This document shows positions 14 through 24,694 of a DNA stretch of 25,628 nt, piece by piece. Numbering within the stretch: position 1 is the stretch's first letter; every line of letters starts with the position of its first letter. The notes beneath the pieces were generated by a model, which worked only from the letters and a program-made list of their open reading frames with translations, was not told the origin of the DNA and searched no databases. Made by a program: the position numbers and the translations under genes. The stretch comes from a virus. The stretch spans positions 1 through 25,628 of the IMG/VR virus record IMGVR_UViG_3300010391_000042; one strand, 5' to 3'.

Positions 14-163
14 TGACGAACCTTATTTAAGTGACGTTGTATGTGATACTAGCGTCAAAATTATGGAGAATAAGTAAGAGATTAAAATTCTCCGAAGACC
101 ATGAAAGGTTATCTGTGGCCTAAAGCACAGTATGAGTTAGACATGACTCTAACAGGTTCGTCA
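14..163 (+). ncRNA. Structured RNA, 5' module (multi-branched fold upstream of HNH gene)
   Basis: No gene covers this stretch, but it is dense in exact inverted repeats. A 9-bp closing helix pairs 14-22 (TGACGAACC) with 155-163 (GGTTCGTCA). Inside it lie 32-36/53-57 (TGACG/CGTCA) with an inner 39-42/46-49 helix, 65-71/87-93 (GGAGAAT/ATTCTCC), 97-100/107-110 (GACC/GGTT), 113-117/126-130 (CTGTG/CACAG) and 136-141/148-153 (GTTAGA/TCTAAC). Five hairpins closed by one long helix in 150 nt is what a folded RNA looks like. It ends 20 nt before the HNH start codon, so it could be a leader of that gene, part of a group I intron, or the 5' half of a large phage RNA whose other half is at 769-1123. The family was not identified; the pairings are read directly, the function is inferred. 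Confidence 0.55.
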
Positions 164-183
164 TTTATTGTAATAAGGAAACG

Positions 184-768
184 ATGATAGATTTAACCGG
201 AAAACAATTCGGGAGATGGACGGTCATGGGGCACGATCATACGGAACGCCGAGGTTCCAACTCTGATAGGTATTTACAGTATTGGAAATGCAAATGTATT
301 GAGGGAAACGAGAAGATTGTTGAAGGATTGTTTTTGCGGCGAGGCTCATCAAAAAGTTGTGGATGTTTGAAAGACGAGGGTTATATTTGTATGAAGCATA
401 AAACTCTACCATTTATGTATTTATTCAATAGATTAAATACTATAGCGAAATCCAGAGGATTAAGCGTCGGATTTACCTATGAAGATTTTCTCACATTTAC
501 AAAAATATCTAAGTGTCATTATTGTGAAACTAAAATTACATGGTATCCTCATTCTGTAAAAAGGGAGAATACTACTTATAGTTATAATCTTGACCGGACG
601 GATAATTCCGAGGGATATACTAAAGATAATTGTGTGGTTTGTTGTAAAGAATGTAATAATGCTAAAAATAATTTCTTTACTTATGATGAAATGATAATTA
701 TAGGTAGAGCTATAAAGGAAATTAGGCAAAAAAGAATGGAAGGTAAACTGATCGGGGTATCAGGATAG
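184..768 (+). CDS. HNH homing endonuclease (194 aa)
   Basis: Free-standing or intron-type HNH endonuclease that would nick or cut DNA at a specific site and promote spread of its own gene. Residues 3-62 follow the N-terminal module common in phage HNH proteins: LTGKQFGRWTV, then WKCKC (34-38) and a closing KSCGCL (57-62), likely a small zinc-binding DNA-recognition unit. The HNH nuclease core is at about 110-165: CHYC (111-114), YNLDR (134-138) and VCCKECNNAKN (152-162), giving the two Cys pairs of a zinc-bound beta-beta-alpha-metal fold. An AAGGA Shine-Dalgarno lies just upstream of the ATG. The gene is AT-richer than the structural genes and uses more A/T-ending codons, consistent with recent acquisition. 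It sits between two structured RNA segments, as expected of an endonuclease nested in an intron or other RNA gene. Confidence 0.85.
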   Translation: MIDLTGKQFGRWTVMGHDHTERRGSNSDRYLQYWKCKCIEGNEKIVEGLFLRRGSSKSCGCLKDEGYICMKHKTLPFMYLFNRLNTIAKSRGLSVGFTYEDFLTFTKISKCHYCETKITWYPHSVKRENTTYSYNLDRTDNSEGYTKDNCVVCCKECNNAKNNFFTYDEMIIIGRAIKEIRQKRMEGKLIGVSG

Positions 769-1123
769 ATTGGAAATCTATACGTGCTTTAACTGTGCAT
801 CAGAATCGTGCTCTGTGCCTTCCGCCAATTTTCGATGCGACTGCAACTAGCGATGAAGGTTCGATTCCTTCGTAAAGTGGAACGCAAGTCAGGGGTATGG
901 ATTCCGCTAGGGCCATATCAGCATCAACAATTTTTATGTCGCACGGACCACATTCCTATTTGAAACTTAGAAGGGGAGCACGGGGAGAATTAGGAACATG
1001 GTACAGTGGATGGGTAGCACCCGCAACCAAGTTTGAAAAACGAAGTGCGTCCCGCCGAGTGCGACATGCAAAAGACGTTCCCGATGGCAAAGCATATCGA
1101 AGGCTTTGGGGATATTGGGAATG
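769..1123 (+). ncRNA. Large structured RNA, 3' module, ending just before tRNA-Ser
   Basis: About 360 nt with no convincing gene but many exact helices: 769-773/825-829 (ATTGG/CCAAT); 797-799 and 801-804 with 812-818 (GCA-CAGA/TCTGTGC); 839-844/884-890 with one bulge; a T-arm-like hairpin 855-859/867-871 with loop TTCGATT; 894-900/913-919 (GGTATGG/CCATATC with one GU); a long-range 9-bp helix 936-944/1059-1067 (ATGTCGCAC/GTGCGACAT) enclosing 948-950/999-1001, 953-958/991-996 (TTCCTA/TAGGAA) and 1017-1020/1045-1048; and a long terminal hairpin 1076-1086/1113-1123 capped by 1088-1093/1103-1108 (CAAAGC/GCTTTG). Together with the 14-163 module this resembles the very large ornate RNAs known from phages next to tRNA genes (GOLLD and ROOL classes are the known precedents), but I cannot assign a family. 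A group I intron is the main alternative. Confidence 0.6.
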
Positions 1124-1131
1124 GTGCTAAT

Positions 1132-1223
1132 GGTAGGTTGGCAGAGCACGGCTTATTGTACCTGTTTCGAAAACAGGAGTGGCCTAAAAACCACCGGGGG
1201 TTCAAATCCCTCACCTACCGCCA
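1132..1223 (+). tRNA. tRNA-Ser(CGA): tRNA-Ser(CGA)
   Basis: Complete class II tRNA. The acceptor stem GGTAGGT (1132-1138) pairs perfectly with ACCTACC, followed by discriminator G and an encoded CCA (1221-1223). The anticodon stem is CCTGT/ACAGG with loop TTCGAAA, giving anticodon CGA, which reads UCG serine codons. A long variable arm (GTGG/CCAC stem) is present, as required for serine tRNAs, and the T-arm is GGGGG-TTCAAAT-CCCTC. It follows the structured RNA by 8 nt and is followed by a short T run. TCG codons are common in the Ser-rich tail genes of this window, which could explain keeping this tRNA. Confidence 0.95.
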
Positions 1224-3314: not shown

Positions 3315-5231
3315 ATGGCAAATAAAAGAGTATCAGAACTGGCCCCCATCGTTGCTGCCGATTTGGACTTTGCAGACCTCCTGCTTTTATCCGACATCAC
3401 AGCACATGAATCTAAGAAATTAGCGTTACAAGACCTTAGCAGTTTCATTTTGCTTGGTGGGCTTCTCACGGGGTCTCTCTTTGGCACTGCCAGTTATGCC
3501 ATTCATGCCCTCTCGGCATCGTATGCTCCATTCATTTCGGCATCGTATGCAAAGACCAGTAGTTGGGCTTACAACATCTCCACAGCTTCTTACGCTTTGG
3601 CTGCTTTGTCTGCCTCTTATTCATTGAGTAGTTCTTATTGTATTACGGCATCGTATGCGCTTACGTCTTCTGTGCAATTGGTATATTCATCTGCATTTGC
3701 TGATTACTCAAGAACTGCTTCATACTTGCTTTTTACTCCCGGCTCTACAAATGGAACTGCCTCGTATGCGCTTTCGGCTTCGTATTTCCTCGGTACGGCA
3801 CAAGTCTCAGCTTCCTATGCTTTGACATCATCATGGGCATGGAACTCCATTACAGCATCCAGATCCGTTAGTGCTCGAAATGCTGATACAGCATCTTTTG
3901 TTTTTACGGCATCTTTCCTGTCTTTCAACGGTATTGCGAATGGAACTGCTTCTTACGCATTAGTTGCGGGGACTACGCTAAACCCGAGACGAGATTATGG
4001 TATTTTTAATGCCATTACTCAGTCAGTTTCATCATCTCGACTTGACCTGATGGCTGTCACACCAGCCTTGGGAGGTCTCAAGATAACAACGGTTGAAGTA
4101 TATGGAACTATTGTTGTTCCATTCTCATCTTCGGTAAGTCCAACCAATGGAAGAATTGAACTTATCGCTCTAAATAGAGAATATGGGAATTCTCATTCGT
4201 TGGATGTATCATCAATATATGCGGATGTCGGAGGTAGCGCAGCAATTTCTGGAACATTGAAGTATCCATTTACTCTCTGTGGAGAAGCTTCGCTCTATGG
4301 GCTGTATAATGTTTATGTGACGGCTTCTAATGGTGTTTTTATTGAAGGTACACGAACAGCAAGGTTCAAGATTAATAGCGAAAGTGATCAACTTGCTGTC
4401 TCCACAGCCGAACCAATGATATTCACTTCGTATCCGACCAATGCGATCATGTTGTTCTCGTCAAGCTTACATGCGGGCGAGTCTTATTATGGTTCGGCAT
4501 CTCAAGTCACTTTTTCAGGTTCATATGATGTGACAGAGTTGTTTATACCTCCATCTTCGGTAAACATTTTGAACTATACTTGGACGTTAACAAGTGCCTC
4601 AAAAATCACAGTGGACGACAACCCGGGATTGACATATCTGGGTGGTATTCCGGCAGCTTGTATATCTATGTCTGCCGCAAACTGTTCACTGACTGCACTC
4701 CCGACGCTGGTAAGTGGTAGCATATCATATCTGAATGTTCCCGGCAACAATATCGTAGCTGACTTGATATTGCCACATACAATGAGTTATCTTAACGTAT
4801 CCAAAAGCTATTACGTTTCGTTTCCAACTATTATGCCGACTAATATGGCGGTTCTTATAGCCGATGGAGTTGGACTTATTCAAACGCCCATTTCCTTCCC
4901 AAATACATTACTCTCAGCGTCATTTGTGAATTGTCCATTATTGACAACGTGGAATCCCCCGCTCTTCCCTACAAGTTTGATATATTGGAATTCAAATGGG
5001 TCTCCTATGTCTAATTTACCAAGTTCAATGCCAGCGAATCTGGCATATATGAATGTAGCAAATAACAATTTGCCTTCGACAACCATCGGAAGCATTGCTA
5101 CGAGCCTAGTGTCTAATGGATTGAGCAATGGATACTTAAACATTCTCAATAACCCCGGCAGTTCATCGGCCACTAATATTGTGACAAATCTCACAACTTT
5201 AGCCGCTAGTGGATGGACGATAGTATCTTAA
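3315..5231 (+). CDS. Tail-fibre-type protein with SASYA repeats and C-terminal leucine-rich repeats (638 aa)
   Basis: Probable virion tail protein involved in host recognition. Residues 1-50 (KRVSELAPI...LQDLSSFIL) resemble the N-terminus of the next gene, so both probably attach to the same virion site. Residues 57-215 hold about eleven degenerate SASYA/TASYA repeats, a low-complexity fibre-like segment. The middle (225-410) is beta-rich and unassigned. From about 415 to 620 the sequence reads as short leucine-rich-repeat units, such as YLNVPGNNI, TSLIYWNSNGSPMSNLP and NLAYMNVANNNLP, with L/P/N spacing like bacterial LRRs. LRRs are protein- or glycan-binding folds, so this end may contact the receptor. 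It starts directly behind a TATTTAT element and is followed after 10 nt by its paralogue. The tail assignment is inferred from repeats and context. Confidence 0.8.
   Translation: MANKRVSELAPIVAADLDFADLLLLSDITAHESKKLALQDLSSFILLGGLLTGSLFGTASYAIHALSASYAPFISASYAKTSSWAYNISTASYALAALSASYSLSSSYCITASYALTSSVQLVYSSAFADYSRTASYLLFTPGSTNGTASYALSASYFLGTAQVSASYALTSSWAWNSITASRSVSARNADTASFVFTASFLSFNGIANGTASYALVAGTTLNPRRDYGIFNAITQSVSSSRLDLMAVTPALGGLKITTVEVYGTIVVPFSSSVSPTNGRIELIALNREYGNSHSLDVSSIYADVGGSAAISGTLKYPFTLCGEASLYGLYNVYVTASNGVFIEGTRTARFKINSESDQLAVSTAEPMIFTSYPTNAIMLFSSSLHAGESYYGSASQVTFSGSYDVTELFIPPSSVNILNYTWTLTSASKITVDDNPGLTYLGGIPAACISMSAANCSLTALPTLVSGSISYLNVPGNNIVADLILPHTMSYLNVSKSYYVSFPTIMPTNMAVLIADGVGLIQTPISFPNTLLSASFVNCPLLTTWNPPLFPTSLIYWNSNGSPMSNLPSSMPANLAYMNVANNNLPSTTIGSIATSLVSNGLSNGYLNILNNPGSSSATNIVTNLTTLAASGWTIVS
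3483..3963 (+). repeat. SASYA/TASYA coding repeats, block 1
   Basis: About eleven degenerate units of (S/T)ASYA-type residues at irregular spacing of 8-20 residues. At DNA level the core GCATCGTATGC recurs several times (for example near 3538, 3544 and 3650), but most copies have drifted in third positions, so the repeat is kept at protein level. Confidence 0.85.
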
Positions 5232-5241
5232 GGATTGACAT

Positions 5242-6843
5242 ATGCCAGAATTCAATATCAAAATCAGTGAACTCAATGGAGTAACGCCAAATCCTCCATT
5301 TACAGAAGATTTTTTCCCGTTGGTTCACAGTGCGTCAATGACCACTTACCGAGCCACTCTTCAAGACATCGGCTCGTTGATGACCCGTTCTATTTATGCG
5401 GATACTGCATCGTACTTGCTAAGTGCTATTTCAGCATCTCATACTCTTTACTCGGATTCGGCGTCTTATGCTATTAGTTCTTCCCATGCCATCTCAGCAT
5501 CACACGCTCTCCGAGCAGATTCGGCTTCTTATTATCCTCTTGCAAGTACAGTAATATCTTGTTCATGGGCATCGAGTTCGCTCCAATCGTGGTATGCGAC
5601 TCGTTCTATTGATACAGATATTCACGGCCAACAGTTCTTTTTCCCGTGGTGGAACACCAACAATATTGCGGGTACAAATGGAGCGTTATCATCTTCCAGC
5701 CCATTGTTTTTTAGCCGAAGTCAAGGTAATGATGCCTATGGTCCAATTGTAATAGACCCAGCTTGGAGTTTTCAATTTACTAATGATTACTCTGTGCCTT
5801 CTCCCACTACTTATCCGTGGTTTTCACAGTCGGGGTGGTGGAATCCACACAACAATGCGAGACCATCCGATCTATCACCCGACCCCGCAACCTCCGCTGG
5901 AGTTGGAGGATTGTTTAGTCCGTGGCCAATTGTTTCGGGATTATTTTGTGGAACAGATCAAAAAGCATGGTACTATTCGACTGGGAGTGCTCTTGCAGTT
6001 GAAAATACTATTTGGTCGGGGAGTTATGCTTCGGGGTCAAGGAGGCCATTAGATCGAAGCTATGACCAGATTTTCAACGGAAAATGGTTGCGTATTGCGG
6101 TTACTAATACAGGCCCGGACTTTCCAACAACTCCTCATCTTGCACCAAACGTAGCCGCAGGCGAAACCCCGGGGTCATGGAACCATACTGGAATGTTTGG
6201 GCGTATGCGCCTTCGTATAGGCTCCTCCAATTATGGGGGCGGCTCTAATAAAACTTGCATAGTTGATTTTGATATTGAAAATTATTACTGGTCGTCTCAC
6301 ATGTCGGCAAGAGTGAACCATGTTGAAAATGTTAATCTTATTAAATCAATTCGTTTAACCAAGAACTCGTCGAATTATGTCAACGATCCGTTCCAGACAA
6401 TAGATATTCTCTTAGATGGATTTACTTCTTCCGACCATATAATGGATATGACTTTCCAATCGTGGGGCGGCATAAGATTTTTGAATTTCCCGAATCTTGA
6501 TCCTCCCCGAATCATGGATACCGGAAGTAATAATATTCATCAGGATACCAATCAATTGATTTTCCCTGCTCGCCCGGGATTTTATTCTACCTATACCAAC
6601 ACTGCCGACTACAACACATATAACATTTTTGGTCGTAATGTTATTATTGACCCAACAGCAAATGAAATTACAGCATCAGGTCAGATGTCGGCGTTTCAAC
6701 ATTCGTTGAACGTCAGTGGTAGTATCAATACCAACACCAAATACTACTGCGACAATCAAGTGGGGTTGACTACGACAGTTACTTATGGTACGAACACGTT
6801 GACTTTCGTGGGAGGTATTCTGGTTAGCAAGTTCCCACCATAA
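5242..6843 (+). CDS. Second SASYA-repeat tail protein (533 aa)
   Basis: Tail-fibre-type structural protein, partial paralogue of the preceding gene. Residues 1-50 (KISELNGVTP...LVHSASMTTYRATLQDIGSLM) share its N-terminal pattern: a K-x-S-E-L start, a central hydrophobic stretch and an ending LQD-xx-S. Residues 53-105 carry a shorter SASYA/SASHA repeat block. The remainder is Trp/Asn/Tyr-rich and beta-like, with WWNTNN, WSSHMSARVNHVENV and SFQSWGGIRF-like stretches suggesting a receptor-binding or carbohydrate-binding beta structure, though no family is certain. The C-terminus (LNVSGSINTNTKYY, then TVTYGTNTLTFVGGILV) has the short repetitive strands typical of phage fibre tips. An AAGGA Shine-Dalgarno is present. 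A terminator follows 22 nt after the stop. Confidence 0.78.
   Translation: MPEFNIKISELNGVTPNPPFTEDFFPLVHSASMTTYRATLQDIGSLMTRSIYADTASYLLSAISASHTLYSDSASYAISSSHAISASHALRADSASYYPLASTVISCSWASSSLQSWYATRSIDTDIHGQQFFFPWWNTNNIAGTNGALSSSSPLFFSRSQGNDAYGPIVIDPAWSFQFTNDYSVPSPTTYPWFSQSGWWNPHNNARPSDLSPDPATSAGVGGLFSPWPIVSGLFCGTDQKAWYYSTGSALAVENTIWSGSYASGSRRPLDRSYDQIFNGKWLRIAVTNTGPDFPTTPHLAPNVAAGETPGSWNHTGMFGRMRLRIGSSNYGGGSNKTCIVDFDIENYYWSSHMSARVNHVENVNLIKSIRLTKNSSNYVNDPFQTIDILLDGFTSSDHIMDMTFQSWGGIRFLNFPNLDPPRIMDTGSNNIHQDTNQLIFPARPGFYSTYTNTADYNTYNIFGRNVIIDPTANEITASGQMSAFQHSLNVSGSINTNTKYYCDNQVGLTTTVTYGTNTLTFVGGILVSKFPP
5398..5537 (+). repeat. SASYA coding repeats, block 2
   Basis: About six units of ASYL/ASHT/ASYA/SSHA/ASHA/ASYY type in gene 5242-6843, the same repeat family as 3483-3963 but shorter and with His often replacing Tyr. 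Confidence 0.75.
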
Positions 6844-12904: not shown

Positions 12905-14884
12905 ATGGCAACAACAACATCTAAAAATTTTGCTCCCAATAGCAAAGACATCCGCTACATCAACCGAGATTTCTCTCAGTTGCGTGAGGCACTCATTAAC
13001 TTTGCCAAGGTCTATTACCCCAATACCTATAAAGACTTTTCCCCCGCTGCCCCCGGCATGATGTTCATCGAGCAAGCGGCTTACGTCGGTGATATTCTTA
13101 GCTATTACACAGATTACATCTTCAAGGAAACCACGATGCAGAGCGCCACTGAGCGCAAAAACATCATTGCCCTCGCAAGGTATTTGGGATATAAAATCAA
13201 ACCATCCACGGCAGCAACAGGTGTGGTCAATCTCCAGCAAATCTGTCCCGCTGCGGGCGATGGAATGGGAACCTATTATCCTGACTCCAATTACATGCTG
13301 ACGGTCAAAGAGAACACTCAATTTTCAAATAATCAAGGAACCTATTACGTTCTAACTGCGGCAGTAGATTTCGCTGTTAGTTCGTCGGTGTCACCAAGAG
13401 CCGAACAGGTTTACGCAAGAAATGATGATGGAACGCCGCAGTTCTTTTTGTTGACGAAGCAAGGCCCATTAAGTTCTGGACAGATATTGACCCGTGAGGT
13501 TGTTGTTGGAAATCCATCACCGTACTTCAAGATTAAACTTAGTGAGACAAATGTCCTTCAAGTCCTTGATATTGTGGACTCGGATAACAATAAGTGGTAT
13601 GAAGTGGATTATTTGGCCCAAGGTATGGTGCCAATTGCTGTTCCGAACGATGCCCAGTACGAAGGGTCATTGTCGCAGTATAAGGATTCGGTTCCCTATA
13701 TCTTACACTATCTCAAAACCTCCCGTAAGTTCATTACTACAGTAGATGAAGACAGCAACATGACTATTGAGTTCGGTGCGGGAGTCAATGGTGTGGACGA
13801 TGAACTTGTGACATTTGACTCTGATTTGATTGGTATTGGGTTGAGTAACATCAACGAAGTTAATTTGCCGTTAGACCCCAGTAACTTCTTGACGAATGAA
13901 AACTATGGTATGGCTCCACAGAATACTGTACTTACGATACGATACACGATTGGTGGTGGATTACAATCCAATTGCCAAGCCGATGAAATTCGTAATGTAG
14001 TGTCAGCCGTGTTTGACAATCCTTCGGAGGGTCTATTGCCCGAACAAATCAATTTGCTTAGAACGGTGGAGAATTCTCTTGCCGTAACGAATCCGTCTCC
14101 ATGTACGGGAGGCAAGGATGCGGAAACGGACGAGGAAATCAGACTGAACGCAATGGCGAATTTTGCCTCCCAGAACAGAACTGTAACTCAGAATGACTAT
14201 CTGGTTCGTCTCTATTCGATGCCTGCTCAGTTCGGTGCTATTGCCAAGGCTCAAGTTATTGCAGACACTAGCTTGCAGGTGGGAATAAACAAAATTCTAC
14301 TTGGCGTGGTTGACCATAATAACATTGCTCAAGTAGTTGACAACAGCGATAACAATTACTTTCGTCGAATTGCCTACGACAATACGAACCCATTTGCCAT
14401 CAATGTTTACATTCTGACCTACAATGCTGATAAACAATTGATGAAGCCAAATACGGCCCTCATATCGAATCTGATTACGTATCTCAAGAGGTATCGTATG
14501 ATTACCGATGGTGTGAATGTCATTGATGGCTACGTTATCAACATTGGAGTGAATTTTACCATCACAGTGTATAAGGGTTTCAACAAGAAGGATGTGTTGA
14601 GCAATTGTATCTCGATAGTGCAGGACTTCTTCAACATTGACCAGTGGAACTTCTCACAGCCAATCAATCTAAGCCAATTGCAACTTGAGATTGCTAAAGT
14701 AGATGGTGTGCAGTCGGTGGTAAGCATTGATATTTATAACAAGACCGCTTTGGATGGGAATTACTCTCCCGTGCAGTACAACATAGAAGCAGCGATTAAG
14801 AATGGGATTATTTACCCATCGGTGGACCCCTCGATTTTCGAGGTAAGGTATCCCGATAGTGACATCAAAGGCTCGGTACTTTAA
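12905..14884 (+). CDS. 6: Baseplate wedge protein gp6-like (baseplate J) (659 aa)
   Basis: Main structural wedge subunit of the contractile-tail baseplate, forming the inner ring with gp25 and gp7-type partners. The N-terminus (about 15-100) has the characteristic DIRYINRDFSQLREALINF, then APGMMFIEQAAYVGDILSYY and ATERKNIIALARYLGYK. The baseplate-J core appears at about 400-450 (GGKDAETDEEIRLNA...RTVTQNDYLVRLYSMP), and the C-terminal part (about 525-620) contains repeated alpha/beta units (LQLEIAKVDGVQSVVSIDI). Length 659 is close to T4 gp6 (660). An AAGG sequence lies upstream of the ATG. It ends one nt before the next start. Confidence 0.93.
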   Translation: MATTTSKNFAPNSKDIRYINRDFSQLREALINFAKVYYPNTYKDFSPAAPGMMFIEQAAYVGDILSYYTDYIFKETTMQSATERKNIIALARYLGYKIKPSTAATGVVNLQQICPAAGDGMGTYYPDSNYMLTVKENTQFSNNQGTYYVLTAAVDFAVSSSVSPRAEQVYARNDDGTPQFFLLTKQGPLSSGQILTREVVVGNPSPYFKIKLSETNVLQVLDIVDSDNNKWYEVDYLAQGMVPIAVPNDAQYEGSLSQYKDSVPYILHYLKTSRKFITTVDEDSNMTIEFGAGVNGVDDELVTFDSDLIGIGLSNINEVNLPLDPSNFLTNENYGMAPQNTVLTIRYTIGGGLQSNCQADEIRNVVSAVFDNPSEGLLPEQINLLRTVENSLAVTNPSPCTGGKDAETDEEIRLNAMANFASQNRTVTQNDYLVRLYSMPAQFGAIAKAQVIADTSLQVGINKILLGVVDHNNIAQVVDNSDNNYFRRIAYDNTNPFAINVYILTYNADKQLMKPNTALISNLITYLKRYRMITDGVNVIDGYVINIGVNFTITVYKGFNKKDVLSNCISIVQDFFNIDQWNFSQPINLSQLQLEIAKVDGVQSVVSIDIYNKTALDGNYSPVQYNIEAAIKNGIIYPSVDPSIFEVRYPDSDIKGSVL

Positions 14885-14885
14885 T

Positions 14886-17363
14886 ATGCACCACTATATA
14901 TTCCCATATCAGGACACGTATATCACCAACCGCCCAACGGGGTTGGATACGAAGAACTTTGGCGTTGACGAAATCCTCCAAGTGGGAACCGACAACTCTA
15001 TTTTTGGATACATAAGCGACACTACAAAATACACTTATTCCAGATCAATATTTTCCCATGTTGGGGTGCAAAGTTTTACGGGAACCTTCACGGGTTCCAT
15101 AACGGGAACCTCAACAACGTCAAGTGCAACGCTCTCGGGAAGTGTTACGGGCTTTTTCACTAGCTCATTCAGTGTTACAGGGTTCTCGGGAAGTATCACC
15201 AATGGTGAGACCATTTGTCTTTATGGCACCGCCTCGGGGGTGGATACTCGCCAGCAACGAAGCCGTGCGTACACGACATCTTCATATAAAGACCGTGCTC
15301 TGATGAAGTTTGATTTGACCACCATTTCGGCGTCAATGGCAACAGGCAGCATCATCAACCCAGCCTTCCACTTGAAGGTGAAGATTTGCAATGAGTATCA
15401 ATTGCCAGTTGAGTATTCAATCTATGCTGCTCCAATTAGCGAGAGTTGGGAAATGGGTAAGGGCTACGCTTCCGATGGAGGTTCGGAGGAAGGAGCAAGT
15501 TGGGTCTATCGTGATTACTATGGTGGCAATCCGTGGGCTATAACTGGTTCAACATATACGTTGCCGTTCTGCTCTCAAAGTTTCCGATACAAATCAGCCG
15601 ATATTGACATGGATGTGACTCCAATTGTCAATCAATGGCTTGCAGGACTCCCGAACAATGGATTTGTCATCATGTCCTCGGACGATTTCCACCCTACTGG
15701 GTCTGGGTTCCTTCTCAAGTATTTCAGCGAAGATACCAACACCATTTACTCTCCGTTCCTAGATGTAGCATGGGGTAGCGATTGGGAGTTTACAACTGGA
15801 AGCTACATGACGAGTAGTGTTGTAATCTCATATTCCTCGGGGTCTTCAACAACTGTACAGGCAGGTTCATCTCTCACGGGCGCTGGCGGGATACATGGTA
15901 ATTTCAAGGGTGCAGCATTTTTGAATGTGTTTCCACATTACCTTACAGCAAGTAATGCCCTTTTCACGGGAAGCTTTCTTCAAAAGTTTACAGGAAGTTT
16001 CATCGGCTTATTCTATGGAGCAGTGGATAATTCCAATGGATTTTATACTGGTAGCGGTGACTTTTCGGCAAGCTATTTTACGGGGTCAGCCGATGGGGTT
16101 GATACTCAAGTAACAAGTGGTAGTGTGACGGGAAGCAACATCTCGGGGAGTCTCATGGGAGAGTTCTCTCTACCTTCATATTTGGGTCAGTACTCGGGGA
16201 GTCTGCAAGGTTCGGCACTTGCTTTCCAAGGTTCTGCCTCGGGATACTATCTTGACGAGACCAACTATTATTATGTCGGATTCATCTCGGCATCAGGACT
16301 TACCGGAAATATAGGTGGTGTTCCCGTCATTGGTCCCGTGGAAGGTTTGATTTCAATTAACAAGGTAACAGTCAACTTACCATCCGAACTTAAGACTCGC
16401 TGTGCGACGGCTCCGATGGAATCCCCATATGGAACTCCCAATTTCCCAACAACCTATAATGCATATACCTATCTCAATTTGGAGTGGGTTTGGGGTGGTG
16501 ATGAAGTGGGATGGTCAAGCACGATTCCAATTACTCCTAATTCTTGTGTTACATCCTCGTGTGGAGTCTCACATTCAGTACAATTGATGACAGGTTCCTT
16601 TACGGGTGGACCTTTCGGTGGTGATAACTTTACGGCCTACTATGAGAACTACCAAATCCTTTTGGCAAATCTCTCGGGGTCATGGAATAGTGCATCTTTG
16701 ATTGGGGCATCATGTATTATACCGATGCCTCAAGCATCCTACCCATACGTGACCGCCTTTATCAGTGGGTTGTATGTCAATGGTCGGGCACTGGGCCTTT
16801 ACACTGTCTCCAGTTCTGTCAGTCAGAGTGTAGCCACAAGTGCAAGCTTCGTTGGTCAGTTTGTGGACGGTCCTCTTGTGGGAGGATACGTTACACTTCA
16901 ACTCTCAGGAAGCGCCTCGACATCAGGCTATGCTTACACAAGTAGCGTGAATTTTACGTCTAGTTTGCTGAATCCGCTCAACACGGAGCGTCCATTTAGC
17001 ATCAACCTTGGGAATCTGCAACCAGAGTATAAGGCGGGCGACATCATCAAGGTAAACGTTTTCGGACGAAAGAAGTTTCCGCTGAAATACTTCGGTATTT
17101 CCACTCAGCAAGAGCAATATCTTGTTCCCGAATTCTTACCGCCAACGTCTTATTATGCGTTGAAGGACAATCAGACTGACGAAATTGTAGTTAATTTCGA
17201 TAGTTATACGCAGATAAGTTGTGGGTATCCCGAAGGAAACTACTTCCTTGTGGATACCACGTCGCTCCCGCAAGAAAGATACTATCGTGTCTTAATTCGG
17301 GTGGAAAATGGTCAAACGATTGATACGATTGACACTGGCAAGACATTCAAGATAACGAGATAA
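14886..17363 (+). CDS. TGS-repeat baseplate/tail protein with DNRLRE-like domain (825 aa)
   Basis: Start at ATG 14886, one nt after the gp6 stop; an in-frame ATG at 14859 lies inside gp6 and is unlikely. Residues 1-35 (MHHYIFPYQDTYITN...) begin like DNRLRE-type domains. A TGS/SGS-rich low-complexity block occupies 63-107, then 133-300 matches a DNRLRE-like beta sandwich: DRALMKFDLTTIS, a W-E-M-G-K-G segment, GASWVYRDY, DIDMDVTPIVNQWLAG and NGFVIMSS. Such domains occur in secreted and surface adhesins. A second block of (F/S)TGS repeats covers about 355-470. The last 125 residues (from FSINLGNLQPEYKAGD) form a non-repetitive conserved-looking end that may dock on the baseplate. The position after gp6 corresponds to the wedge protein gp7 slot. 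Confidence 0.75.
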   Translation: MHHYIFPYQDTYITNRPTGLDTKNFGVDEILQVGTDNSIFGYISDTTKYTYSRSIFSHVGVQSFTGTFTGSITGTSTTSSATLSGSVTGFFTSSFSVTGFSGSITNGETICLYGTASGVDTRQQRSRAYTTSSYKDRALMKFDLTTISASMATGSIINPAFHLKVKICNEYQLPVEYSIYAAPISESWEMGKGYASDGGSEEGASWVYRDYYGGNPWAITGSTYTLPFCSQSFRYKSADIDMDVTPIVNQWLAGLPNNGFVIMSSDDFHPTGSGFLLKYFSEDTNTIYSPFLDVAWGSDWEFTTGSYMTSSVVISYSSGSSTTVQAGSSLTGAGGIHGNFKGAAFLNVFPHYLTASNALFTGSFLQKFTGSFIGLFYGAVDNSNGFYTGSGDFSASYFTGSADGVDTQVTSGSVTGSNISGSLMGEFSLPSYLGQYSGSLQGSALAFQGSASGYYLDETNYYYVGFISASGLTGNIGGVPVIGPVEGLISINKVTVNLPSELKTRCATAPMESPYGTPNFPTTYNAYTYLNLEWVWGGDEVGWSSTIPITPNSCVTSSCGVSHSVQLMTGSFTGGPFGGDNFTAYYENYQILLANLSGSWNSASLIGASCIIPMPQASYPYVTAFISGLYVNGRALGLYTVSSSVSQSVATSASFVGQFVDGPLVGGYVTLQLSGSASTSGYAYTSSVNFTSSLLNPLNTERPFSINLGNLQPEYKAGDIIKVNVFGRKKFPLKYFGISTQQEQYLVPEFLPPTSYYALKDNQTDEIVVNFDSYTQISCGYPEGNYFLVDTTSLPQERYYRVLIRVENGQTIDTIDTGKTFKITR
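15073..15207 (+). repeat. TGS coding repeats
   Basis: Short tandem-like (F/I/V)TG(S/T/F) units in gene 14886-17363; the DNA core ACGGGAACC or ACGGGTTCC recurs several times here, and more dispersed TGS units follow at about 15960-16260. Confidence 0.75.
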
Positions 17364-23917: not shown

Positions 23918-24694
23918 ATGGCAACCTGCGGAATTTACAAGATAGAGAACAACGATAATGGAAAGTTCTATATCGGGAGTTCTGACGACATTCATCGTAG
24001 GTTTGGTCGCCATATAAGCGATTTACGCAGAAATAAGCATGACAATGCTCATTTACAGAATGCGTGGAATAAATATGGAGAAAAAAGTTTTGACTTTGAA
24101 GTGGTGAGGGAATGTTCTACACTGGATTTGTTAGTAGAAGAGCAAAAAGACCTTGATGTGTGGGTTGGTAATCCCAACTGCTATAATATCAGAGAAAGTG
24201 CTGAATGTCCTGTCACTCCCGGCTCTAAACGTCCAGAATGGGTGAAAGAAAAAATATCGGCTGCACAAAGAGGAAAGCCACGATGGACAGAAGAACAGAA
24301 AAAACAAATGTCCATAGATAGAAAAGGAAGGAAACCTTCGGCGGAAACTGTTCAAAAACTTAGAAACAGACCGAAATCTTGTTATACGGGAATAGTCAAG
24401 GCACAACAACTAAACGTTGGTAGGATTTATTCGGGTGAACATTGCTTGCATATTTCTAATGGGAAACAATTAACCCCAAAAGTATTTACTGATGAGGAGC
24501 GAATTCATATAAGAGATGGGGTCAGAAAAGCGATTTTAGAAGGCAGATACCACAAGAATAAAATCCCGAAAGAGGAATATGAAATCATACGGACTTTGTA
24601 TTTATCCGGCAGAACAAACAAACGACAACTTGCATTCAAGTATGGAATAACTCCAACTTCTATGTCTCGATTACTGAAAAGAATAGGAATATAA
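23918..24694 (+). CDS. GIY-YIG homing endonuclease with NUMOD3 and HTH (258 aa)
   Basis: Free-standing homing endonuclease inserted between two structural genes. The GIY-YIG domain (1-85) has CGIYKIE (4-10), KFYIGSS (16-22), the catalytic Arg region DIHRRFGRH (24-32), NAWNKYGEKSFDFEV (48-62) and the metal-binding Glu at E75. Residues 108-150 carry NUMOD3-type DNA-binding repeats (VKEKISAAQRGKPRWTEEQKKQMS and DRKGRKPSAETVQKLRN), and the end (230-258) is a small helix-turn-helix (LAFKYGITPTSMSRLLKRIG). The gene is AT-richer than its neighbours. The sequence upstream (CACTTTATAA, 23901-23910) resembles the TATTTAT elements, possibly captured or evolved to use late transcription. It abuts the next start by 1 nt. 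Confidence 0.9.
   Translation: MATCGIYKIENNDNGKFYIGSSDDIHRRFGRHISDLRRNKHDNAHLQNAWNKYGEKSFDFEVVRECSTLDLLVEEQKDLDVWVGNPNCYNIRESAECPVTPGSKRPEWVKEKISAAQRGKPRWTEEQKKQMSIDRKGRKPSAETVQKLRNRPKSCYTGIVKAQQLNVGRIYSGEHCLHISNGKQLTPKVFTDEERIHIRDGVRKAILEGRYHKNKIPKEEYEIIRTLYLSGRTNKRQLAFKYGITPTSMSRLLKRIGI

Follow-up and report, generated by a model that had tools for sequence, protein, structure and literature searches.

RNA A, a conserved structured RNA family in the tRNA arrays of large phages, with one copy next to a putative homing endonuclease gene

The 5' end of IMG/VR record IMGVR_UViG_3300010391_000042 is rich in predicted RNA helices on both sides of an HNH endonuclease gene. The question raised by this locus is whether these helices belong to one large RNA that is interrupted by the endonuclease gene, as proposed in an earlier note made from the sequence, or to separate elements. 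The record, a linear 25,628-base fragment, is covered in full by the window analysed in this work. The source of the window is judged to be a large tailed phage from its PhoH gene and its tail- or baseplate-like genes, the latter recognised by inspection of the open reading frames (ORFs). Positions 3315-6843 and 14859-17363 apparently encode large structural proteins in which ASYALSASY-type repeats are numerous. A GIY-YIG endonuclease-like ORF (start MATCGIYKIENNDNGKFYIGSSDDIHRRFGRH), a second likely homing endonuclease, is located amid structural genes at 23918-24694.

Among the matches to cultured phages that were listed, the window matched only at the tRNA-Ser gene at 1132-1223, and none resembled the locus described here. 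The PhoH gene, which lies 1.3 kb 3' of the array, served as the anchor with which 80 related contigs were fetched. Extra relatives were obtained through a small ORF, DNA patterns, and two further PhoH searches. The related contigs exhibit a conserved tRNA order of Gln(CUG), Ser(GGA), and Ser(CGA), followed by PhoH. Positions 1-1223 of the window are part of a phage tRNA array and not a single giant RNA. The order in the window is the end of tRNA-Gln(CUG), RNA A, the HNH gene, tRNA-Ser(GGA), RNA B, a gene for a protein of 64 amino acids, and tRNA-Ser(CGA) (Table 1). Contig L010 exhibits this order too but lacks both the HNH gene and the small protein gene. Contig L138 lacks only the HNH gene from the series RNA A, HNH gene, tRNA-Ser, RNA B, small protein gene, and contig L015 has RNA A, tRNA-Ser, RNA B, and tRNA-Ser.

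Table 1. Features of the tRNA array at the 5' end of the window
Feature	Position	Strand	Evidence
tRNA-Gln(CUG) 3' end (ACTCCAGCCA), cut by the contig edge	1..10	+	Aligned with L010 1174-1247, tRNA-Gln(ctg)
RNA A	14..163	+	Covariation; closing helix; covariance-model hits
RNA A, P1 closing helix	14-23/154-163	+	Exact, 10-bp
RNA A, P2	32-38/51-57 plus 39-41/47-49	+	Covariation
RNA A, P3 outer; P3 inner	62-66/99-103; 78-81/89-92	+	Comparison of homologues
RNA A, P3 internal loop	67-76/94-98	+	Between outer and inner helix
RNA A, core motif AGAAUAAGUA ... GAAGA	67..98	+	Invariant or near-invariant columns in the homologue alignment
RNA A, possible pseudoknot	106-108/119-121	+	Read from the alignment
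RNA A, P4; P5	113-117/126-130; 136-141/148-153	+	Covariation
HNH endonuclease gene (putative)	184..768	+	PHROG endonuclease hits; absent from most relatives
tRNA-Ser(GGA) (probable)	738..827	+	Sequence; near-identical copies in L010, L018, L173; same place as tRNA-Ser(gga) of relatives
RNA B	834..925	+	Six homologues, pairing counts
RNA B, closing helix; third hairpin	834-838/921-925; 896-900/913-917	+	Homologue comparison
RNA B, T-arm-like hairpin, loop UUCGAUU	855-859/867-871	+	Homologue comparison
64-aa protein gene	936..1130	+	dN/dS 0.05-0.2; homologues in L002, L003, L053, L138
tRNA-Ser(CGA)	1132..1223	+	ARAGORN; Rfam

Structure and distribution of RNA A

Positions 1-183 of the window fold at -50.7 kcal/mol (z = -5.0), and none of 200 shuffled sequences folded as well. 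The earlier note had described here a closing helix around five hairpins. The closing helix was borne out, with 10 bp, and five inner hairpins were seen, but the second differs from the hairpin at 65-93 of the MFE structure. The comparison of homologues gives an outer helix, an internal loop, and an inner helix at this place (P3), so that RNA A has four hairpin arms (P2-P5) on P1. The members are about 150-190 nt in length.

The pairing was counted in two alignments. In the structure-free alignment of 22 homologues, 88.7% of the cells are paired compared to 30-41% when the partners are slid by 1-3 columns, and both sides have changed in 20 of the 24 pairs (114 such cells vs 33.5 in shuffles). 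The alignment of 33 distinct homologues, which was made to the model and leans towards it, has 92.0% of the cells paired vs 30-41% when slid, and compensatory changes on both sides occur in all 24 counted pairs (202 cells vs 53 in shuffles). The support for RNA A as a structured RNA is strong.

The helix sequences vary around an internal loop in P3 that is fixed, with AAUAAGUA on the 5' side and GAAGA on the 3' side, where AGUA and GAA are nearly invariant. RNA A is taken to be a functional structured RNA because its helices vary freely around this fixed loop. From the motif alone, we take AGUA/GAA to resemble the bulged-G (loop E / sarcin-ricin) motif. Apart from the pair adjacent to tmRNA genes (L187 and L195, which have no clear P1), almost every uncut member has a P1 of 6-11 bp. 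The P1 sequence changes among the members, as in the strand pairs AACAACGGAU/AUCCGUUGUU, UGACGAACCU/AGGUUCGUCA, GGAGAACCU/AGGUUCUCC, and UGUGACGGG/CCCGUCACA. One subgroup exhibits AGG or GGG before P4 that covaries with CCU or CCC in the P4 loop, a possible pseudoknot of three bases as read from the alignment.

The neighbours of RNA A were compared among the contigs. Twenty-three members come after tRNA-Gln(CUG) and usually run straight into tRNA-Ser(GGA). Other contexts were also identified. L049 has a terminator hairpin after tRNA-Gln and then the promoter-like TTGCCA-16-TATATT that ends a few bases before RNA A, and L092, L179, and L054 have a promoter-like sequence immediately 5' of RNA A (by inspection). 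L087 has no tRNA 3' of RNA A, and its P1 3' strand leads into UUUUUU. In L067, RNA A is preceded by a protein gene and followed by a terminator hairpin. In L187 and L195, RNA A begins 3-4 nt past the end of a tmRNA gene, and these copies have E-values of 1e-9 to 1e-7 under a model built without them. A divergent copy is located between tRNA-Ser(UGA) and tRNA-Ser(GCU) in L140. Since a promoter-like site at the 5' end, a terminator, or adjacency to tmRNA is found in some relatives, RNA A appears to be an RNA gene of its own, presumably expressed, that founds a separate family.

RNA A occurs as a single copy per record in records of up to 250-365 kb, and the records of 250-365 kb that carry it encode tmRNA too. 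The phage tmRNA genes at L187 747-1132, L195 4055-4437, and L192 4272-4647 have unusual tags that end with AVA or VVA and not LAA. No tmRNA was identified in the window by ARAGORN and Rfam, both of which find tmRNA in related phages. Some relatives (L030, L059, and L173) have lost RNA A, which shows that the array can do without it. With the RNA A models R1 and R2, no match was obtained in the relatives lacking it or in the T4 tRNA cluster (L141), except the divergent L140 copy. This search thus gave no homology of RNA A to T4 RNA C/D. RNA A was also found neither in the INPHARED cultured phages (blastn), nor in a 30-base pattern scan of the bacteria and archaea in GTDB with one genome per species, nor in Rfam 15. 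The earlier note's description of a structured non-coding RNA of no known family, beside phage tRNAs and with an HNH gene nearby, was borne out.

Array components 3' of RNA A

The 3' segment behaves differently from what had been proposed. The earlier note had read it as one structured RNA module, but positions 769-1131 fold no better than shuffles (z = +0.30) and split into the rest of tRNA-Ser(GGA), RNA B, and a gene of 64 codons. This gene at 936-1130 encodes MSHGPHSYLKLRRGARGELGTWYSGWVAPATKFEKRSASRRVRHAKDVPDGKAYRRLWGYWEWC. The dN values between the window and L002, L003, and L138 are 0.09, 0.20, and 0.28 vs dS values of 1.58, 1.65, and 1.37, which give dN/dS of about 0.05-0.2, and most of the differences fall at third codon positions. 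These ratios point to a protein gene under purifying selection. An RNA module at 936-1130 was rejected on the same ratios, and the claim that no protein gene explains the helices failed there. The long-range helix 936-944/1059-1067 begins at the ATG of this gene and its strands are unpaired in L002 and L138, and the helix 1076-1086/1113-1123 is broken in relatives (strands compared by eye in both cases). A family of small basic proteins is seen in phage tRNA arrays (window 936-1130; L004-L007), and the C-terminal motif DVPDGKAYRKL of the 64-aa protein is common to much more distant phages.

RNA B is about 92 nt in length and has a perfect tRNA T-arm (GAAGGUUCGAUUCCUUC) without a cloverleaf. 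All of the counted cells are paired in the six homologues (100%), with changes on both sides in 8 of the 20 pairs. The next tRNA gene after RNA B is tRNA-Ser(CGA) in four contigs, namely L010, L015, L138, and the window, the last two of which have the small protein gene in between. RNA B is located 5' of tRNA-Ser(GCU) in L137, and in L140 it is located 5' of a matching tRNA-Ser gene that was not called by ARAGORN. RNA B is regarded as a separate unit because it precedes different tRNAs among the contigs. RNA A and RNA B are independent families. Many contigs have RNA A without RNA B (L018, L021, L028, and others), and L137 carries RNA B where the RNA A model gave no match. A blastn search of cultured phages with RNA B returned only tRNA-like or chance matches. 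Another conserved hairpin-rich element (start TTTGACGCCGAGGTTCGTC) stands before tRNA-Ser(CGA) at the place of RNA B in L049 (6483-6562) and L052 (447-525).

The probable tRNA-Ser(GGA) gene was not called by ARAGORN and falls below the Rfam threshold. Its acceptor arm (GGAAGGU/GCCUUCC) and its anticodon arm (loop UUGGAAA) are complete. The T-loop AUCGUGC is non-canonical in that positions 54 (A) and 58 (U) are swapped, and it is conserved in four contigs. The last 31 nt of the HNH ORF are inside this gene and coincide with its 5' part.

In most relatives, tRNA-Ser(GGA) comes directly after RNA A and an endonuclease gene is absent. Because the site between RNA A and tRNA-Ser(GGA) is empty in most relatives, the HNH gene is best read as an intergenic insertion of a putative free-standing homing endonuclease. 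Its domain and its presence or absence at a conserved intergenic site are the features by which such endonucleases are recognised. At this site, L010 has part of another reading frame, a short segment resembling an endonuclease remnant, which matched no Pfam family. No close relatives of the HNH protein were found in IMG/VR.

Possible function of RNA A

The best explanation, to which we assign a probability of about 0.68, is that RNA A is a discrete RNA gene that is released by tRNA processing or transcribed from its own promoter and that acts in trans, with RNA B as a second RNA and the HNH gene as an intergenic gene. The transcript of the array would read through RNA A together with the tRNAs. 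Processing of the 3' end of tRNA-Gln probably frees the 5' side of RNA A, and the RNase P cut at tRNA-Ser probably frees its 3' side. P1 joins both ends and would protect them. In the relatives with the promoter-like site, RNA A is apparently transcribed alone. The invariant internal loop of P3 would be the most likely binding surface for a partner from the translation apparatus, and RNA A would act in trans during infection. Such a role is suggested because the neighbours are constantly tRNA or tmRNA genes and the internal loop is fixed. RNA A may also found a class of phage RNAs associated with translation that work with tRNAs and tmRNA, for example by binding the ribosome or a translation factor through the loop-E-like core, and that would be carried along in the tRNA/tmRNA operons of large phages. 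We put this reading forward tentatively as a whole.

The fit of RNA A between two tRNA genes in most members, with the ends of P1 a few nt from both, would also be expected if it were a mere element for processing or insulation of the tRNA precursor, that is a spacer that prevents misfolding of the tRNAs or guides RNase P/E. Folding is also common in such places, since z is below -2 for about half of the 125 spacers from the tRNA arrays that were fetched. However, a spacer alone does not account for an internal loop that is invariant while the helices vary, nor for the members with their own promoter-like site, with a U-run (L087), with a protein gene on the 5' side (L067), or with tmRNA on the 5' side (L187 and L195), and we consider this explanation rather unlikely. 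RNA A is directly 5' of the HNH gene in the window and might be its cis-regulatory leader, as RNA structures that hide the start sites of T4 homing endonucleases control the translation of segB and mobE (PMC2988022). Most homologues have tRNA-Ser(GGA) and no ORF after RNA A, and the ribosome binding site of the HNH gene is outside the RNA A fold, which makes a leader very improbable.

The reading with which this locus was first approached, in which the HNH gene splits either one RNA of the GOLLD or ROOL type or a group I intron, draws on the location beside tRNAs and on the HNH gene in the middle. Positions 1-1300 gave only tRNA and chance matches in Rfam at E-values up to 10. GOLLD and ROOL matched neither at the gathering score nor at this E-value, so the precedent offered in the earlier note did not hold. 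A group I intron over both segments was likewise without a match at E up to 10, and the flanks are tRNA and RNA genes with no split exon. RNA A and RNA B are found independently of each other and are separated by a probable tRNA-Ser gene, the HNH gene is absent in most relatives, and the 3' part is a protein gene. A single interrupted RNA was rejected, and we give this reading next to no weight. RNA A as a discrete RNA gene is the reading that we retain.

To our knowledge, the spacers in the long tRNA arrays of large phages have rarely been examined. Other recurrent spacer families were seen, such as those that separate Ala(GGC) from Ala(CGC) in L021, L033, L049, and L092. Some of the recurrent sequences may be missed tRNAs and others may be further RNA families. 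What is new here is RNA A, a phage RNA family of wide distribution and without a match in Rfam. One array spacer is a strongly covarying RNA family that is found in records of up to 365 kb and that extends from tRNA arrays to tmRNA genes. The T4 small RNAs, whose setting is alike, have been known for decades, still with no known role. A widespread family with an invariant core, some members of which have a promoter-like site of their own or adjoin tmRNA, gives a concrete handle on such RNAs in the phage control of translation.

Comparison with known systems

In the literature on spacer RNAs of phage tRNA arrays, only GOLLD/ROOL and T4 RNA C/D were found. GOLLD and ROOL are phage-encoded structured RNAs near tRNA islands whose function is unknown (PMC12286853). 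They are far larger (many GOLLD RNAs exceed 800 nt) and form oligomeric cages, whereas RNA A has 150-190 nt and RNA B has 92 nt. Only the neighbourhood is common to both groups.

T4 SegB is a free-standing homing endonuclease whose gene lies between tRNA genes (PMC2988022, Table 1). The gene in the window is similar in being an endonuclease gene at a tRNA intergenic site. SegB is a GIY-YIG enzyme, whereas the endonuclease of the window is an HNH enzyme with putative activity.

The T4 rnaC and rnaD (species 1 and 2) are late RNAs of 139 and 119 nt with no known role (PMC3014915, PMC9697503). Unlike them, RNA A is a junction of several helices in which one internal loop is invariant, and it is known from sequence alone. 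RNA B and T4 rnaC both exhibit a tRNA-like T-arm hairpin (compared by eye). RNA A lies in a tRNA cluster, the location by which a small RNA like T4 RNA C/D is recognised, and both pairs of RNAs share their phage tRNA cluster with a gene for a free-standing homing endonuclease (segB in T4, putative in the window). By this setting, the T4 small RNAs C and D appear to be the nearest known kind.
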